NCBI RefSeq assembly: GCF_016745395.1
Contig: NZ_JAERVJ010000004.1
Span: 238,369 to 302,368 of the forward strand
From: Methylocystis sp. Sn-Cys
Lineage (GTDB): Bacteria > Pseudomonadota > Alphaproteobacteria > Rhizobiales > Beijerinckiaceae
Direction of reading: 5' to 3'
Length of the DNA stretch: 64,000 nucleotides
The notes beneath the pieces are model-generated. The model did not search any database. It was not told where the DNA came from and saw nothing but the letters and a program-made list of their open reading frames with translations. Positions 8,060-16,159 of the stretch are shown one piece after another (position 1 is the first letter of the stretch; every line of letters starts with the position of its first letter). The position numbers were made by a program, and so were the translations under genes.

Positions 8060-8090
8060 CTGCCCGGGCTACGTCCTGGGCAGGCTTTTT
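8060..8090 (+). terminator. Rho-independent terminator of the sMMO operon
   Basis: CTGCCCGGG (8060-8068) pairs with CCTGGGCAG (8075-8083) with one non-Watson-Crick pair, and a TTTTT run follows at 8086-8090. An upstream GCCGGGCAG segment (about 8038-8046) can pair with the same arm and may form an alternative hairpin. It marks the end of the sMMO transcript. Confidence 0.8.
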
Positions 8091-8392: not shown

Positions 8393-8419
8393 ATCTCACC
8401 GCTATGGCGGCCTTTGTCG

Positions 8420-8785
8420 ATGTCCGGATCGACCTCGAACATGCAGCTCGAAACGCAGACCCAGAATGACCGAGCCGTCCTCATCGTGAAGGAGGAGCGT
8501 CTGGACGCGCACAATTCGAGCGAGCTCAAGGAACGCATTTTAAGGACTCTCGAAGAAGGCGGGCGCCGCCTGGTGGTCGATCTGGCGGACGTGAAATTCA
8601 TCGACAGCTCCGGACTTGGCGCATTGCTGTCCGGCTACAAAAACGCAAGTCAGCGCTCTGGGACATTCGTGCTCTCTGGCCTACAGCCCCGCGTGCGCTC
8701 GATGTTCGAGCTGACGCGGCTCAACCGCGTCTTTGAAATCTACCCGCGCCTGCAAGAGGCGATCAGCAGCCAAGGCGTCAGCTAG
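8420..8785 (+). CDS. STAS-domain anti-sigma factor antagonist (RsbV/SpoIIAA type)
   Basis: A protein of about 121 residues with one STAS domain. The key phosphorylation motif is intact (KFIDSSGLGALL, Ser of the DSSG turn). In partner switching the unphosphorylated antagonist binds the RsbW-type kinase and releases its target; phosphorylation by that kinase blocks this. The start is uncertain: ATG 8420 is used, while TTG 8414 and ATG 8441 (MQLETQTQND) are also possible and none has a strong ribosome-binding site. The kinase gene follows after ten bases and a matching PP2C phosphatase is two genes further on. Confidence 0.88.
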   Translation: MSGSTSNMQLETQTQNDRAVLIVKEERLDAHNSSELKERILRTLEEGGRRLVVDLADVKFIDSSGLGALLSGYKNASQRSGTFVLSGLQPRVRSMFELTRLNRVFEIYPRLQEAISSQGVS

Positions 8786-9263: not shown

Positions 9264-12200
9264 ATGGACGGGGACATTCACCTCCGCAACAATGTGGACG
9301 GAGCGGCGCAGACATCACGCCGCGCGGTGAACGGCGCCGCCGCGGAGTTTCCCGCAGATTATCGCGATCTCGTCGCGCCCCGGCAGCGCATGCGCGATCT
9401 GTTGAAGCTCGGCGAGGTCTTCGCCCCGAGCCGCCACGCCATCGATCTTCGCCGGCTTCGCGACGGGCGTGAGTATGATCTGCGAATCTACGGCGCACAG
9501 CCGCGCCCGCTCGACGATCTCATTCCGATCTTGCACAATCTCGGCCTTTCCGCCGTCGATCAGATTCTGTTTCCCGTGACGCTTTCGGGAGACAGGCGCT
9601 TCATTCGCAGTTTCCGCGTGAGGCCGGTGGACGCCGCGAAGGTTCAGCAATCACGGGCGCAGCTTCTTGCGGCGTTGAACGCATTGCTATCAGGGGAGGC
9701 GGAGGACGATCCCCTCAACAAGCTTGTCCTGCTCGCGGGGTTGAGCGCGAAGGAGATTGGCGTCCTTCGCGCCTACTGCTGCTATTATCTGCAACTTGGC
9801 GTGCGTGTGGACCGCTCGCGCTTGTATGAGGCGCTCATCGGTGGCGTCGAGGTCACGCGCCTGCTTTTCTCCTATTTCGAGACCAGGTTTTGTCCCGATC
9901 ATGCAGGCCAAGGCTCGCTCGACGCGCTCGCCGAGATCAGGCAGCGTCTGATCGCCGCCTTCGACGAAATCTCCAATCTCACGGACGATCGCATTTTTCG
10001 CGATCTCTTCAACCTCATCGATGCGACGCTGCGCACGAATTTCTATCTGAACGACGAAAGCCAATCGAAGGCGCTGGCGCTCAAGATCAACAGTCTCGGC
10101 GTGATCGGCGCGCCGCCTCCCAAGCCGATGTTCGAAATCTTCGTCCATGCGCGCGCGATGACGGGCATACATCTGCGCGGCGCCAAGGTCGCGCGCGGCG
10201 GCATACGCTGGTCGGATCGCGCGCACGATTTGCGAACTGAAATTCTCGATCTCATGCAGACGCAGATGATCAAGAACGCCTTGATCGTTCCGCAGGGCGC
10301 CAAGGGCGGTTTCGCTTTGAAAACCCCGAGTTCCGACCCGTCCGGACGCGAAGCGGCGGGGAAGTCCGCCTATCGCGCATTTATCGGCGCGCTGCTGGAA
10401 TTGACGGATAATCTCGATCCCGAGAAGCCTGGGCCAGCAGAGCGCATCTGCTACGATGAACCCGATCCCTATCTTGTCGTCGCGGCCGACAAGGGCACAG
10501 GCGCTTGGTCGGATATTGCCAATGAGATGTCACAGGCGCGCGGATTCTGGCTCGACGACGCCTTCGCCACCGGCGGATCGAACGGCTACAGCCACAAGCG
10601 CCTCGGCATAACCTCGCGGGGCGCCTGGGTCTGCGTGCGGCGTCATTTTCGCGAGATCGGTCGAAACATCGACGACCAGGGATTTTCCGTCGTCGGCGTC
10701 GGTTCGATGGATGGCGACGTCTTCGGAAACGGGATGTTGGAGGCGCACACCATCAGGCTGTTGGGGGCGTTCAGCGGCGAACATATCTTCATCGACCCCA
10801 ACCCCGATCCGCTGATCTCTTACGATGAACGCCGGCGGCTTTTCGAGAAGCCGCGATCCTCCTGGGCGGATTACGACCCGGCCAAGATTTCGCGCGGCGG
10901 CGGCGTCTATCGCCGCGATGCGAAGGACATCGAGCTGAGCCCCGAGGCGCGGTCGTGGCTGCAAGCCAGAAACCGCTTGGTCGACGGCGAGGGGCTGATC
11001 CGTCTCCTGCTGGCGGCGCCTGTGGATTTGCTTTGGATGGGCGGCGTCGGCTCCTATGTGAAGGCAAGCGCGGAGACGGACGAGAGCGTTGGCGATCGGG
11101 CCAATGACGGCGCGCGGATCGACGCCAATCAGCTCCGCGCCAAAGTCGTCGGCGAAGGCGCGAATCTTGGTTTCACCCAAAGAGCGCGCGTCGAATATGC
11201 TTTGAATGGCGGCCGGATCAATACGGACGCCGTCGACAACTCGGCGGGCGTCGATCTGTCGGATCACGAGGTGAATCTCAAGATTTTGTTGCGCGGCCCG
11301 CATGGGGCGCAATTCGCTGCATCGAGCGAAATTCATCGTCTTCTGGAGAGCTTGACCGACGAAGTCTGCGCCGCGGTCCTGGACGACAATTATCATCAGA
11401 GCCTGTGCATCTCTCTCGAGCGGGAACGCGCCCTCGCCGATCTCGAACCATATATGGACGTCGCCGATCGGCTCGAGGCGGCGGCGCAGCTCGATCGTGA
11501 AAATAACGCTTTTCCAAATCGGCGGGAGCTTTTGGCGCGCGCGGAAGGGGGGCTGACGCGGCCGGAGCTGAGCATCCTCATGGCCGAGTCGAAATTGGCG
11601 TTGAAGCGGGCGCTTCTCGACGCGCCGGGATTTCTCGATTCCAAATGGAGCGAGGCGTTTCTCGCCGCCTATTTCCCGTCATCGCTGCGATCGGAAGACG
11701 CTTCCAGGATCGACGCGCATCCGCTTGCGCGCGAGATTGCTGCGACGGTCATCTGCAACAGGATCATCGATCAGGCCGGCGCGAGATTTCTTCTTTTCGG
11801 AGACCCGCTCGCGCCGACTCTGCTGACCGACGCCGTCGGCCTCTATCTTGCCTTCGACGAGATACTCGGAGGCGAGCGTTGGCGTAGCGCGGTCCGGAGC
11901 CTGGACGGCAGAATGAGCGCCGGGCGGCAATATGAATATCTGCTGCAACTCGAAGACGCTTTGGCCTATTTGTGCCGCTGGGCGCTGCAGGGCGGCCGCC
12001 GGCTCCAGCCGCAGACGCGCGAGGTCGCCGAATGGCGCGCCTATCTCGAAAAATATCTCGCCTATTTTTCGCAAAGCGCGGAAGCGTCGATCCTCGACGC
12101 CAATGCGCCGGAGGCGTCCCGCGAGATGTTCCTCAACAGGCTGAGGGATTTTCCATTTCTCGTAGCGCTTGCCGAGCAGGGCGGCAAGGACGTCGCGGTG

Positions 12201-12551
12201 GCGGCGCGGTTTTTCGACGAGGTTGGAGGAAGCCTCGGCGTGCGCCAGATCGCTGCATTGGCCGGCGAGCTTACGGCGCGGGACGCGTGGGAGGGGAAGC
12301 TGCAGACGGCGGTCGGGGAACGACTGCGCGCCGCGACCGCGCGCATTGCGGGTGTCGCCTTGAGGGCTGGCGTCGAGGAGCCGGCCGCCATTTTCCGGCT
12401 CGCCGACCTCGCGCCGAAGCTGACGGAACTGCGCAAGCTACGCGCCGAGATCGTCGAAAGCGCGCCGAAAACCGTTGCGCCCTTTGCGCTCTTTGCCTCC
12501 GAGCTCGACGCCTTGGTCGAAGCCTGTAATTCCGCCCGGCGCGCGGCGTGA
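9264..12551 (+). CDS. Large-type NAD-specific glutamate dehydrogenase, compact (1095-residue) form
   Basis: This protein oxidatively deaminates glutamate to 2-oxoglutarate with NAD+. Catalytic-domain signatures are clear: GGIRWSDRAHDLRTEILDL near 312-330, the lysine-containing KNALIVPQGAKGGF near 335-348, GGSNGYSHKRLGIT near 436-449 and VGSMDGDVFGNGML. Bacterial relatives (GDH180 type) are usually about 1600 residues with a long N-terminal regulatory part carrying ACT-like domains. This one has only some 300 residues before the catalytic core and resembles the 115-kDa class in length. ATG 9264 follows a GA-rich stretch. It sits between the switch kinase and the PP2C phosphatase, suggesting co-expression. 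Confidence 0.87.
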   Translation: MDGDIHLRNNVDGAAQTSRRAVNGAAAEFPADYRDLVAPRQRMRDLLKLGEVFAPSRHAIDLRRLRDGREYDLRIYGAQPRPLDDLIPILHNLGLSAVDQILFPVTLSGDRRFIRSFRVRPVDAAKVQQSRAQLLAALNALLSGEAEDDPLNKLVLLAGLSAKEIGVLRAYCCYYLQLGVRVDRSRLYEALIGGVEVTRLLFSYFETRFCPDHAGQGSLDALAEIRQRLIAAFDEISNLTDDRIFRDLFNLIDATLRTNFYLNDESQSKALALKINSLGVIGAPPPKPMFEIFVHARAMTGIHLRGAKVARGGIRWSDRAHDLRTEILDLMQTQMIKNALIVPQGAKGGFALKTPSSDPSGREAAGKSAYRAFIGALLELTDNLDPEKPGPAERICYDEPDPYLVVAADKGTGAWSDIANEMSQARGFWLDDAFATGGSNGYSHKRLGITSRGAWVCVRRHFREIGRNIDDQGFSVVGVGSMDGDVFGNGMLEAHTIRLLGAFSGEHIFIDPNPDPLISYDERRRLFEKPRSSWADYDPAKISRGGGVYRRDAKDIELSPEARSWLQARNRLVDGEGLIRLLLAAPVDLLWMGGVGSYVKASAETDESVGDRANDGARIDANQLRAKVVGEGANLGFTQRARVEYALNGGRINTDAVDNSAGVDLSDHEVNLKILLRGPHGAQFAASSEIHRLLESLTDEVCAAVLDDNYHQSLCISLERERALADLEPYMDVADRLEAAAQLDRENNAFPNRRELLARAEGGLTRPELSILMAESKLALKRALLDAPGFLDSKWSEAFLAAYFPSSLRSEDASRIDAHPLAREIAATVICNRIIDQAGARFLLFGDPLAPTLLTDAVGLYLAFDEILGGERWRSAVRSLDGRMSAGRQYEYLLQLEDALAYLCRWALQGGRRLQPQTREVAEWRAYLEKYLAYFSQSAEASILDANAPEASREMFLNRLRDFPFLVALAEQGGKDVAVAARFFDEVGGSLGVRQIAALAGELTARDAWEGKLQTAVGERLRAATARIAGVALRAGVEEPAAIFRLADLAPKLTELRKLRAEIVESAPKTVAPFALFASELDALVEACNSARRAA

Positions 12552-12569: not shown

Positions 12570-15152
12570 GTGGAAGAAGAGCCGCTCACGCATCTGCTTC
12601 TTGAAGCCAGCAACGAGGCTGCGTGTTTGCTGGACTCGTCCGGTCTCGTGCTGGCGTTGAACAGCCGCGCCCGGCAACTCATCGGATACAAGGAAAGCGA
12701 GCTGGTCGGACGCCCATTCCCGGGCAGGCCGAAGATTGCGATGGCGGGGGCCAAAGACGGGCCGCTTTCATGGTTGATGGCGCCCGCCCGGCAGTGGATC
12801 GACGTGCGGATCAAGCGGAAGGACGAAAAGGAGATCGACGCGAGTTGCGAGGTTTATCGGCTCGGAACGAAAGGTCTCGCTGGGCTACTACTGAAACTGA
12901 AGGCCGAAGAAACCTCGACGGCGGCGCTCGAGGATATGAAAATCAAGCTCGATGCGATCTTCGGGGGAATGGCCGACGGTCTGGTCGTCATCGACGAGTT
13001 CGGAAAGATCCTGTTCTTCAGTGCAGGCGCCGAGAAGCTCTTTGGCTATCGCGCCGAAGAAGTGATGGGCGCAAATGTGAAATTGCTGATGCCGTCACCC
13101 TACAAGGAGGAGCACGACAGTTATCTTGCGGCCTATCGCGACACCGGAATACGCAAGATCATCGGAATCGGACGCGATGTTTCGGGACGGCGCAGGGACG
13201 GCGCGATTTTCCCGATGTATCTTTCCATCGGCGAAATATGGCTCGAGGGTCGTCGCTACTTCGTCGGCGTCACCCACGATCTGACGAAGACGAAACGCGC
13301 CGAAAGCCGCCTGTGGATGCTGACGGCGGCCATCGAGCAAAGTCCTGTCGCGGTGATGATCTCCGATAGAAACGGCCTCATCGAATATGTGAACGACTAT
13401 TTCACGAAGCTCACAGGATACAGCGAAGCGGAGGTCATCGGACAAAACCCTCGAATCCTTCATTCCCCGCACACGCCGAGAGACCAGCATCTGCGCTTGT
13501 GGCGCACGATCGAAAGCGGCGCGGAGTGGCGCGGAGAAATTCAGGACCGGCGAAAAGACGGCGCGCTTTATTGGGCCTATGAGATCATCGCGCCCTTGCG
13601 CGACGAGGATGGGCAGGTCAGGCACTATCTCGCCATTCAGCAGGACGTCACCGAGCAAAGGCGCGACAAAGAGGCGCTGGCGGAAAGCGAGGAGCGCTTT
13701 CGCAAGGTCGCGGAGATGGTCGGCGAGTGGCTTTGGGAGCAGGACGCAGAGGGCCGCTACACTTATAGCAGCGACGCCGTAAGGGAAATTCTCGGGCTCG
13801 AGCCTTCCGATCTATTGGGTAAGAGTTATCTCAGCATTCTCCAGCCCGAAGGCGACGGTTCGCCGCTTGCTGGTAAACTGCCGACTCCTACACCATTCCA
13901 TCGCATCGTCAATTGCTACTTGCGCGGCGATGGGCGGCGGGTTTTCACCGAGTCCAGCGGCGCCCCGATATTCGACGAGAACGGACGTTTGGCGAAGTGG
14001 CGCGGCGTCGATCGTGATATTACCGAGCGAAAGGAATATGAGGACGCCTTGCGCGTGCGTAATCGCGCGATGGAGGCGGTGCATGTCGGCATTGTGATCT
14101 GCGACGCGCGCGCGCGCGGAAATCCGAATATCTACGTCAATCCCGCGCTCGCCGATATGACCGGCTATTCGCAGGAGGAGCTGCTACGGGGCGGCATGCA
14201 TATCCTGCAGGGGCCGGGGACCGATCCGGCGGCTGTCGCCAAGATTCGGCATGCCCTGCAAACGGGCGAGGGCTGCGAAGTCACCTTGCAAAACTACCGC
14301 AAGAATGGCGAGGCCTTCTGGAACGAATTGCTTATTTCTCCCGTCCCTGACGAGACCGGGGCGATCACGCATTACATCGGCATTCAGACCGACGTCACCG
14401 AAAAGCGGCGCGCCGAGGAAAGCCGCCGTGACCTCGAAATCGCCAAGCAGATTCAGTTGTCACTCCTGCCCGACAAGCCGTTACGCTTGCCGCATGCCGA
14501 GATCGCGGGCGTGTGTTTGCCGGCGACCCATGTCGGCGGGGATTATTTCGATTATTTCGAGAATGGCCAGAATCTGGATTTCGTCGTCGCCGACGTGTCG
14601 GGTCATAGCGTCGGCGCCGCGCTGATCATGACGGAAGTCAGAAGCATGGTCCGCGCTCAATCCCGGCCAGCGGCGGCCGCCCATCCCGCTCACATGCTGC
14701 GCGAGCTCAACGATCTGCTCTACGAGGATCTCGACCGGTCGGAACTGTTCATCACCATGTTTTTCTGCCGATATGAATCCGCCACTGGACGGCTGAAATA
14801 TGCGAATGCAGGCCATAATCCCGGGCTGCTGTTGCGATCGGGACGCCAAGACTGCATGGAGCTCGATAGCGACGGGCTCGTGCTGGGCGCCATGCGCGTG
14901 GTCGATTTCCAGGAACGCAGCGTGCTTTTATCGCAGGGCGACAAGCTTCTCTTTTACACCGACGGCGTCGTCGAGGCCCAGGACGCCTCCGGCGCATTCT
15001 TCGGGCTGGAGCGCCTGTGCCGGCGCTTTGCCGCCAATCGAGAATTTGCGCCCGAGGTCATCGTGCGGAAACTTTTGCGCGAGGTGCGGGATTTTTGCGC
15101 GCCGGCGATGATGGGCGACGATGCGGCTTTGGTTGTTTTGGAAGTGAGCTAG
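12570..15152 (+). CDS. Multi-PAS PP2C phosphatase (RsbU/SpoIIE type) with FixL-like and LOV-like sensor domains
   Basis: This 860-residue protein starts at GTG 12570. About five PAS domains (roughly 5-110, 125-240, 248-365, 372-488, 492-612) precede a PP2C SpoIIE phosphatase (about 640-860) with metal-binding GGDYFDYF (656-663), FYTDGVVEA and MGDDAALVVLEV. PAS 2 follows FixL closely (HDSYLAAYRDTG, IIGIGRDVSGRRRDG), keeping the equivalents of the haem-ligating His200 (His182) and the oxygen-gating Arg220 (Arg202). PAS 5 is LOV-like, with flavin-contacting Asn575, Asn585 and Gln606, but Met543 replaces the photoactive Cys. There are no membrane segments. It would dephosphorylate the STAS antagonist encoded upstream when its signal is present. 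Confidence 0.9.
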   Translation: MEEEPLTHLLLEASNEAACLLDSSGLVLALNSRARQLIGYKESELVGRPFPGRPKIAMAGAKDGPLSWLMAPARQWIDVRIKRKDEKEIDASCEVYRLGTKGLAGLLLKLKAEETSTAALEDMKIKLDAIFGGMADGLVVIDEFGKILFFSAGAEKLFGYRAEEVMGANVKLLMPSPYKEEHDSYLAAYRDTGIRKIIGIGRDVSGRRRDGAIFPMYLSIGEIWLEGRRYFVGVTHDLTKTKRAESRLWMLTAAIEQSPVAVMISDRNGLIEYVNDYFTKLTGYSEAEVIGQNPRILHSPHTPRDQHLRLWRTIESGAEWRGEIQDRRKDGALYWAYEIIAPLRDEDGQVRHYLAIQQDVTEQRRDKEALAESEERFRKVAEMVGEWLWEQDAEGRYTYSSDAVREILGLEPSDLLGKSYLSILQPEGDGSPLAGKLPTPTPFHRIVNCYLRGDGRRVFTESSGAPIFDENGRLAKWRGVDRDITERKEYEDALRVRNRAMEAVHVGIVICDARARGNPNIYVNPALADMTGYSQEELLRGGMHILQGPGTDPAAVAKIRHALQTGEGCEVTLQNYRKNGEAFWNELLISPVPDETGAITHYIGIQTDVTEKRRAEESRRDLEIAKQIQLSLLPDKPLRLPHAEIAGVCLPATHVGGDYFDYFENGQNLDFVVADVSGHSVGAALIMTEVRSMVRAQSRPAAAAHPAHMLRELNDLLYEDLDRSELFITMFFCRYESATGRLKYANAGHNPGLLLRSGRQDCMELDSDGLVLGAMRVVDFQERSVLLSQGDKLLFYTDGVVEAQDASGAFFGLERLCRRFAANREFAPEVIVRKLLREVRDFCAPAMMGDDAALVVLEVS

Positions 15153-15208: not shown

Positions 15209-16159
15209 ATGGCCGCGGCGATCGGCAACCCCTTCGGGCGACGCAAGATCGGCCTTGCGCTGAGCAGCGGCGTCGCGAGGGGATGGGCGCATATCGGCGC
15301 AATCAACGCGCTGACGAAGCTCGGCGTTCCGTTCGACATCGTCGCTGGATCATCCGCAGGCGCATTGGTCGGGGCCTGCTATCTCGCCAAGGAATTAGAT
15401 GAGCTGGAGCGGTGGGCTTTGTCGCTCACCAAGCGACGGATTCTCGGCTACATCGACTTGCATTTCGGGCGCGGAAGCCTGCTCAGCGGCAATCGGATCA
15501 TCGACGAGGTAAGCCGGCTGCTGGGCGCGCGCAGGGTCGAAGATTTGCAAAACTCGTTCGTCGCCGTCGCGACGGATCTGACGACCGGCCACGAGATTTG
15601 GCTTCAACATGGGGGGCTCGTCGACGCCGTCCGGGCTTCCATAGCGCTTCCCGGCCTTCTGCCGCCGATCGAATCGGGCAATCGCGTTCTGGCGGACGGC
15701 GCGCTCGTCGACCCTTTGCCGGTCGCGCCCTGCCGCGCCTTGGGAGCGGACCTTGTGATCGCGATCAATCTCAACACTGACGTCATCGGGAAGATGCGGC
15801 GTAGCGAAACGTCGCCGCGGACCTCGATCGGCTTCGATCCGCTGGTGCTCGGCGTCCATGACGTTGCGTCGGCGCGCCAGGCGAGCGCGACCCGCGCCTT
15901 CGTCCAGCAGGGAGGCGATCTCCCGAGCCTCTTCGGCGTGTTGACCACTTCGCTCGGCATTATGCAGGACCGGCTGACGCGGTCCCGCCTCGCCGGCGAT
16001 CCGCCCGACGTGCACATCACGCCGCGCGTGGGACACATCGGATTGCTCGAGTTCGAGCGCGCCAAGGAGGCGATCTGGGAGGGCGAGCAATCGGTCGAGC
16101 GCAAGCGCGGGGAGGTGATAGATTTGCTGCGCGCAGCCGGAATCGATTTCCCCGTTTGA
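15209..16159 (+). CDS. Patatin-like phospholipase, RssA type
   Basis: This 316-residue patatin-domain serine hydrolase has the glycine-rich oxyanion segment (ALSSGVARGWAHIGA), the nucleophile motif GSSAG near residue 49 and the second dyad member in ADGALVDPLPV. The family cleaves acyl esters of phospholipids; the substrate of RssA-type proteins is not established. No signal peptide is visible, so it is cytoplasmic or peripheral. ATG 15209 follows TTGGAGAAAAG. It comes 56 bases after the phosphatase stop and may be the last gene of that unit. Confidence 0.88.
   Translation: MAAAIGNPFGRRKIGLALSSGVARGWAHIGAINALTKLGVPFDIVAGSSAGALVGACYLAKELDELERWALSLTKRRILGYIDLHFGRGSLLSGNRIIDEVSRLLGARRVEDLQNSFVAVATDLTTGHEIWLQHGGLVDAVRASIALPGLLPPIESGNRVLADGALVDPLPVAPCRALGADLVIAINLNTDVIGKMRRSETSPRTSIGFDPLVLGVHDVASARQASATRAFVQQGGDLPSLFGVLTTSLGIMQDRLTRSRLAGDPPDVHITPRVGHIGLLEFERAKEAIWEGEQSVERKRGEVIDLLRAAGIDFPV

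Follow-up and report, generated by a model that had tools for sequence, protein, structure and literature searches.

A FixL-Type Haem PAS Domain on a SpoIIE-Type Phosphatase: Candidate Oxygen and Redox Input to a Partner Switch in Methylocystis

Introduction

Partner switches are widespread, and the signals that feed them are rarely known; methane oxidisers need oxygen as a substrate and often live at its edge. A stretch of 64,000 nucleotides from Methylocystis sp. Sn-Cys (contig NZ_JAERVJ010000004.1, positions 238,369 to 302,368 of the forward strand; hereafter, the window) brings the two subjects together and raises the question of whether oxygen or redox state sets such a switch in this organism. 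The window holds an open reading frame (ORF) for a SpoIIE-type phosphatase with five PAS domains, the second of which (PAS2) resembles the haem domain of the oxygen sensor FixL, and this gene follows genes for a STAS protein, an RsbW-like kinase, and an NAD-glutamate dehydrogenase, which in turn lie downstream of the genes of a soluble methane monooxygenase (sMMO). A first-pass annotation, made from the sequence alone, had proposed an oxygen-sensing phosphatase linked to the sMMO operon; it was silent on the glutamate dehydrogenase, on the cofactor types of PAS3 and PAS5, on a substitution at the position of a further FixL arginine, and on the spread of the system among gammaproteobacteria. 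The reading preferred here, held with fair confidence, is that the protein feeds a partner switch as its input phosphatase and senses oxygen through a haem PAS domain and redox state through flavins. The fusion of a FixL-type haem PAS domain to a phosphatase, in an operon common to distant methane eaters, suggests that oxygen or redox sets the switch.

A FixL-Type PAS Domain on a Phosphatase

The ORF coincides exactly with the one first proposed, Pfam recognises PAS models in it and places a SpoIIE domain at its C-terminal end, and the metal-site residues are kept, by which its naming as a SpoIIE-type phosphatase is upheld. The invariant aspartates, among which are the metal-site residues of such phosphatases, are Asp658 (just before the Pfam match), Asp675, Asp798, and Asp850/851.

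PAS2 had been said to follow the FixL haem domain through the motifs HDSY, YRDTG, and IIGIGR-VSG-RRDG; every one of them is found in it, and structural database, predicted fold, and tree agree. A search of the PDB with residues 121-245 returns FixL for each of the first seven sequences (2.3e-32 to 6.1e-30), followed by DosP (best 4.3e-16), among 18 sequences passing 1e-3, and PAS2 shares 57 of 116 aligned residues with BjFixL. Similarly, an AlphaFold2 model of PAS2 alone, with a mean predicted local distance difference test (pLDDT) of 80 from 24 sequences, retrieves FixL crystal structures at all of ranks 1-20 in Foldseek, with DosP after them. A PAS tree of 104 rows (only 118 columns, midpoint root), in which the program warned of long branches, groups the methanotroph PAS2 rows, alphaproteobacterial and gammaproteobacterial alike, in a single clade (95/81), nested in a FixL-type clade of 56 rows (99/89) that includes BjFixL and the kinase-borne PAS domains of the order; the remaining PAS rows fall outside the latter. 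The FixL resemblance of PAS2, as a matter of sequence, is far above chance. The protein is nevertheless not FixL itself, as the NCBIfam model of whole FixL gives 207 bits against a cut-off of 850 and the output is SpoIIE.

FixL domains are normally found on kinases, as the first-pass annotation had stated: in other genomes of the order, the FixL-type PAS is followed by two or more of three kinase motifs at 28/29 loci and by a SpoIIE motif at 0/29, one locus having just 19 residues after the domain. Residues alone are a poorer guide to the domain type. A control PAS domain of the same genome with His and Arg at both positions discussed below matches FixL at only 1.9e-15 and 60 bits, so that the pair is not diagnostic of the FixL type; His alone, or His with Arg, was therefore rejected as proof of a haem type, since other PAS domains of the genome and Methylobacter proteins carry them. 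In this genome no second FixL-type PAS was found, the next best match giving 86 bits against 231 for PAS2; several other genomes of the genus hold a second FixL-PAS match below 1e-30. As a separate observation, phosphatases of Methylobacter and relatives (L138, L139, L150, L152-L155, L157-L160, L163, L164) bear two extra PAS domains with a ligand-position His, and both lie outside the FixL-type clade.

The Predicted Haem Pocket

Two samples were used for residue counts. The genus set comprises 37 loci (the window and 36 fetched), and the named loci are the best 80 of 572 relatives from a search seeded by two peptide patterns, which favours close kin; the two overlap (for instance, L087 is the contig of G017), and counts from them are not independent. 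From the named loci, 23 were aligned with the window to give 24 rows over two proteobacterial classes, with L092 and L114, whose PAS2 is identical to that of L091, left out.

His182 and Arg202 had been assigned as haem ligand and oxygen-gating arginine, and the alignment with BjFixL bears both placements out, at a spacing of 20 residues in either protein (His200, Arg206, and Arg220 are taken here as the BjFixL numbers of the aligned sites). His occupies the first column in 36/37 rows of the genus set and in 24/24 of the two-class alignment, and the second column holds Arg in 30, Gln in six, and Met in one of the 37 (the last being L069, a distant protein), with 21 Arg and three Gln among the 24. 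Moreover, His182, Tyr185, and IIG are invariant across the 24 rows, and in the genus set no other domain of the phosphatase is as well conserved as PAS2 (mean majority-residue share 0.80). Elsewhere in the order, once six partial hits are set aside, 29 full FixL-type rows remain, and His and Arg stand at these positions in 29/29. In the AlphaFold2 prediction, a helix (179-192) contains His182, and a strand (202-207) begins with Arg202.

The Methylocystis group with Gln at position 202 extends to the named loci L091, L092, L100, L105 (M. silviterrae FS), and L114 (M. rosea SV97), and constitutes a natural counterpart of the FixL Arg220 variants.

The Partner Switch and Its Cassette

The partner-switch setting that had been foreseen is present, in that a STAS protein with a DSSG motif and an RsbW-like kinase are encoded beside the phosphatase, and a phospho-Ser-motif STAS protein, a GHKL kinase, and a PPM phosphatase stand together as in the RsbV/RsbW/RsbU type. 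Of the genome's three STAS matches, this STAS product is the strongest and alone lies in a short frame, the other two sitting in frames of 395 and 531 residues; other HATPase_c_2 matches of the genome are far weaker and lie in longer frames; and for SpoIIE a single match passes the cut-off and another falls short of it. The genome seems to have no other partner switch of this type, so that the phosphatase most likely works with this kinase and this STAS protein. The STAS motif is degenerate in L067.

The fourth gene encodes an NAD-glutamate dehydrogenase, an enzyme with short and long classes; here it is the only match in the genome, and Pfam models cover it only from ACT3 onward. STAS protein, kinase, glutamate dehydrogenase, and phosphatase follow one another in this order at 32/37 genus loci, the exceptions being L068, L069, L071, L085, and L070, of which the last begins its contig 0.6 kb before the phosphatase. 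L068 (G003:C4) and L069 (G003:C2) are phosphatase paralogues without the cassette. Among the named loci, all four genes lie near one another in 24/80 (17 of Methylocystis type and seven gammaproteobacterial), many of the other 56 being short contigs or holding part of the gene set only. Methylococcus capsulatus (L109) has the cassette genes in the order of the window, and L128, L131, L133, L145, L148, and L149 have all four but with the phosphatase gene pointing the other way (L149 is cut by its contig). A FixL-type phosphatase stands without the other three genes, within the stretch covered, in L102, L103, and L123. The Methylomonas locus L128 has a glutamate dehydrogenase frame of 1569 residues (14736-19445 of L128) against 1095 in the window; hence, the cassette does not always carry the short form.

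Table 1. Features of the phosphatase locus in the window, with positions counted from its first nucleotide.
Feature	Positions	Strand	Details and basis
Five-PAS SpoIIE-type (PPM/PP2C) phosphatase, 860 residues, GTG start	12570..15152	+	ORF, Pfam, AlphaFold2
PAS2, FixL-type haem PAS by sequence	12942..13295	+	Residues 125-242; PDB, Foldseek, tree
His182, proximal haem-ligand position (BjFixL His200)	13113..13115	+	Predicted helix 179-192
Ala188, position of BjFixL Arg206 (propionate arginine)	13131..13133	+	PDB alignment
Arg202, oxygen-gating arginine position (BjFixL Arg220)	13173..13175	+	Alignment
SpoIIE/PPM phosphatase domain	14565..15146	+	Pfam PF07228, 6.5e-49, residues 666-859
STAS protein (anti-anti-sigma type), presumed substrate	8414..8785	+	DSSG motif, Ser65/66
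RsbW/SpoIIAB-like serine kinase, 142 residues	8793..9221	+	HATPase_c_2; boxes intact
NAD-glutamate dehydrogenase, 1095 residues, lacking the N-terminal part found in the long form	9264..12551	+	PF05088, 2.8e-205
PAS1	12582..12905	+	About residues 5-112; least conserved domain
PAS3, MmoS/NifL type, possible FAD site	13317..13667	+	Residues 250-366; PDB matches
PAS4	13692..14039	+	Residues 375-490
PAS5, LOV type without adduct Cys	14052..14420	+	PDB matches; genus alignment
Terminator-like hairpin between mmoC and the STAS gene	8060..8083	+	One found; weak

The Other PAS Domains

In the full-length AlphaFold2 model (mean pLDDT 78, from 20 sequences), five PAS folds are joined by predicted helices at residues 118-131, 239-257, 361-384, and 485-503, and a further helix (610-631) precedes the phosphatase. 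PAS1 has a mean majority-residue share of 0.535 in the genus set, against 0.72-0.80 in the other domains.

PAS3 is nearest to 3ewk in the PDB (1.1e-35 over two stretches, the best stretch at 2.6e-21), which we take to be Methylococcus MmoS, a regulator of sMMO, and then to NifL 2gj3 (2.3e-19). The PAS domains of MmoS and NifL bind FAD; here, the MmoS/NifL-type domain is one part of a phosphatase, and its flavin is putative. PAS5 matches 9vf7 (6.6e-31; named a histidine kinase, whose aligned sequence shows the Cys motif) and the blue-light photoreceptor 4gcz (6.7e-29), and aligns along the whole LOV domain of photoreceptors such as YtvA, whose NCBIfam model it meets at 245 bits against a cut-off of 250. 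The LOV motif holding the photoactive Cys is presumably GRNCRFLQ, and the position of the adduct Cys is Met543 here (14196-14198); Cys is found at this position in 0/37 genus-set rows and in none of the named rows listed above 100 bits. A role as blue-light photoreceptor through adduct chemistry was accordingly rejected for want of the Cys. As an observation in its own right, PAS5 represents a natural Cys-less LOV-type family carried on phosphatases. PAS3 and PAS5 are probable flavin-binding domains, through which a redox input would be added.

Proposed Mechanism

Domain order, homology, kept residues, and the cassette are read directly from the DNA; on these we infer haem and flavin binding, control by oxygen, and the direction and target of the response. 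In the proposed mechanism, PAS2 would bind haem b via His182, and Arg202 would hold oxygen on the ferrous haem. The bound or unbound state would shift the helices that join the PAS domains and thereby alter the activity of the C-terminal SpoIIE phosphatase, which would dephosphorylate the adjacent STAS protein at the Ser of its DSSG motif and oppose the adjacent RsbW-like kinase; the unphosphorylated STAS protein would then take the kinase off its target. Flavins in PAS3 (MmoS/NifL type) and PAS5 (Cys-less LOV type) would add redox input, and the device may sense oxygen and electron supply jointly. That the deoxy state is the active one is a guess, by analogy with FixL and Vibrio RsbR.

Besides a sigma factor, the glutamate dehydrogenase appears to be the best output candidate, whether it is targeted directly or co-regulated; it stays beside the kinase and the phosphatase across two classes. 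The system would also offer a first lead to the control of an enzyme, this dehydrogenase, by a partner switch. A bolder proposal, which is improbable as a whole, has the kinase/STAS pair acting directly on the dehydrogenase without a sigma factor, with haem, FAD, and a Cys-less LOV domain in series in a methanotroph-specific cassette that moved between classes. If true, this would tie nitrogen and carbon flux to oxygen and electron supply.

Counter-Evidence and Alternative Explanations

Several observations weigh against oxygen control through PAS2. The third FixL switch residue, BjFixL Arg206, is replaced by Ala188; Gln stands at position 202 in 6/37 genus-set loci (L060, L062, L075, L077, L081, L082); and Tyr replaces the ligand His in L068, one of the paralogues without the cassette. 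His at the ligand position is, moreover, common in further PAS domains of unassigned cofactor. The AlphaFold2 models contain no haem, and FG-loop residues 193-199 in the full model (197-199 in the domain model) fall below a pLDDT of 50, so that the haem pocket is not resolved in the model; the predicted template modelling score of the full model is low (0.37), which makes the modelled placement of the domains relative to one another unreliable, and three PAS domains separate PAS2 from the phosphatase. A FixL-type PAS2 (above 150 bits) is found in only 25/80 named loci; contig ends truncate some of the rest. Finally, no sigma factor or other target was identified from the neighbouring genes, with no genome-wide target search made.

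These pocket substitutions bear above all on an alternative in which the haem of PAS2 serves as a sensor of redox, of NO or CO, or of haem levels, or discriminates oxygen weakly, and the switch tracks redox rather than oxygen; the flavin-type PAS neighbours fit this reading as well, which is nonetheless considered rather unlikely. BjFixL Arg206 contacts a haem propionate, and its position holds Ala in 28, Ser in five, Asn in three, and Thr in one of the 37 genus-set rows; in the 24 rows of the two-class alignment, M. capsulatus L109 alone has Arg there, and L123 has His. Even among the 29 FixL-type rows of the order it is Arg in 24, with His, Lys, Ala, Ser, or Asn in the others, which makes the residue usual, not universal, in FixL-type PAS domains. 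For SmFixL, R200 variants autoxidise under air, yet in R200A an oxy complex still forms, its Soret band lying at 418 nm with a shoulder from oxidised haem (PMC10765370, in excerpt), and His194 is named as a residue of the same protein (PMC3183031, in excerpt). Arg200 of SmFixL corresponds to Arg206 of BjFixL, because each lies six residues past the ligand His (His194 and His200, respectively), and since R200A still makes the oxy complex, Ala188 is compatible with oxygen binding. Against the redox alternative stand Arg202, kept in 30/37 rows, and Lys or Arg at residue 196 in 37/37, which may replace the lost propionate contact. PAS2 looks able, on this comparison of residues, to bind oxygen, perhaps with more autoxidation.

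A second alternative, regarded as quite improbable, holds that PAS2 survives as an apo relic or has a different ligand, and that PAS4, PAS5, or partners govern the phosphatase. PAS4 occurs together with SpoIIE in 70/80 named homologues, and many Methylobacter-type homologues among the gammaproteobacteria keep both and lack the FixL-type PAS, with other PAS domains instead, so that the haem PAS is an optional input of a modular phosphatase; the Tyr of L068 points the same way. A relic is, however, hard to square with PAS2 as the best conserved domain, in which His, Tyr185, and IIG are invariant and Arg is kept in 21/24 rows over two classes.

The third alternative, regulation of the adjoining sMMO operon, is highly improbable: sMMO genes do lie directly upstream in the window, in G006, and in G022, but 34/37 loci have no sMMO gene in the stretch covered, which mostly reaches 7-8 kb before the STAS gene (5.7 kb in L078, 3.7 kb in L083); at L070, L071, and L083 this negative covers no more than 0.6-4 kb ahead of the first cassette gene. 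In the window, NCBIfam names MmoD, MmoC, and a GroEL-like protein, and the remaining mmo genes are identified by order and sequence, which marks the genome as a methanotroph's; the STAS gene starts 415 bp past mmoC with a terminator-like hairpin between them, itself weak evidence because shuffled sequences give 1.0 on average, the same as found. Of the first-pass annotation's claim on sMMO, adjacency thus stands for the window, and a special link does not, as sMMO genes accompany only 3/37 loci (the window, L050, and L051). As the reason for this neighbourhood, sMMO regulation was rejected, the cassette being kept without sMMO, and the neighbourhood looks incidental.

Comparison with Known Systems

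The preferred reading, oxygen sensing by haem and redox sensing by flavin upstream of a partner switch, has precedents in part. FixL, the oxygen-sensing histidine kinase of Bradyrhizobium and Sinorhizobium, is alike in haem PAS sequence, fold, position in the tree, ligand His, and gating Arg, and differs from the present protein, which has a SpoIIE phosphatase output, Ala in place of Arg206, and three further PAS domains in between. In the RsbP/RsbU and RsbV/RsbW system of Bacillus subtilis, a PAS domain (in RsbP) and a PPM phosphatase likewise act on a STAS protein against an RsbW-like kinase, whereas five PAS domains and a glutamate dehydrogenase belong to the cassette described here. To our knowledge, sigma-B is not expected in this organism. 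RsbP has one PAS domain in which no cofactor was found, with Cys at the position of the FixL His and His in two homologues (PMC3183031, in excerpt).

Haem-based oxygen sensing has been coupled to an RsbU-type phosphatase pathway in the RsbR stressosome of Vibrio brasiliensis, where oxygen lowers activity and no RsbV/RsbW was found, according to an excerpt of PMC4976288. There, the haem resides in the stressosome protein RsbR, and here a FixL-type PAS is fused to the phosphatase. A study of Vibrio vulnificus reportedly treats the same theme. In the open-licence literature searched, no FixL-type PAS inside a phosphatase itself was found, the excerpt of PMC6956133 contains nothing on such a protein, and no paper was found on a partner switch in Methylocystis or on glutamate dehydrogenase with STAS or anti-sigma proteins in methanotrophs. 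Haem oxygen sensing upstream of an RsbU-type phosphatase and PAS-PPM phosphatases are already known, and the FixL-type PAS within the phosphatase is the apparently new element. The predicted cofactor states (oxy or deoxy haem and flavin redox state) could be read by spectrophotometer, which makes the signal to the SpoIIE phosphatase directly testable.

Distribution, Possible Transfer and Neighbouring Genes

The phosphatase is present in 31/39 genomes of the genus, or 28/30 of those of good quality. Sampled genome searches, in which few candidates were scored per genome under strict cut-offs, found it in none of the other genera among the 43 of the family sample (22/298 genomes, all of this genus), and in 1/385 class genomes and 2/398 phylum genomes, this genus again (cut-off 1e-120); the kinase was found in 2/398 phylum genomes, only of this genus (cut-off 1e-25). 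The nearest named relatives of the phosphatase are Methylocystis, among the matches listed, and the homologues of gammaproteobacterial methanotrophs come from the pattern-seeded search of named loci alone. With these included, the protein is a candidate regulator common to methane oxidisers of two proteobacterial classes. In the tree, the Methylocystis PAS2 rows are nested within gammaproteobacterial rows. Taken with the distribution, and within the limits of so short an alignment and of a search seeded by patterns, this suggests transfer between methanotrophs of the two classes.

Some labels among the 80 named loci call for caution. L156, L161, and L162 are labelled Geobacteraceae, Geobacter, or Deltaproteobacteria, and L087, L094, L096, L099, L121, L102, L115, and L151 carry uninformative or doubtful names. 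The last three belong to DYIL01, labelled Methyloversatilis universalis, a genome that is probably mislabelled or mixed, because L102 shares neighbour genes with the Methylocaldum locus L103.

Clustering of the neighbours of 27 loci gave no further gene in more than four loci, except a patatin-like gene in six. In the window, the patatin-like (RssA-type) gene lies after the phosphatase at 15209-16159, and several Methylocystis loci have one there too.

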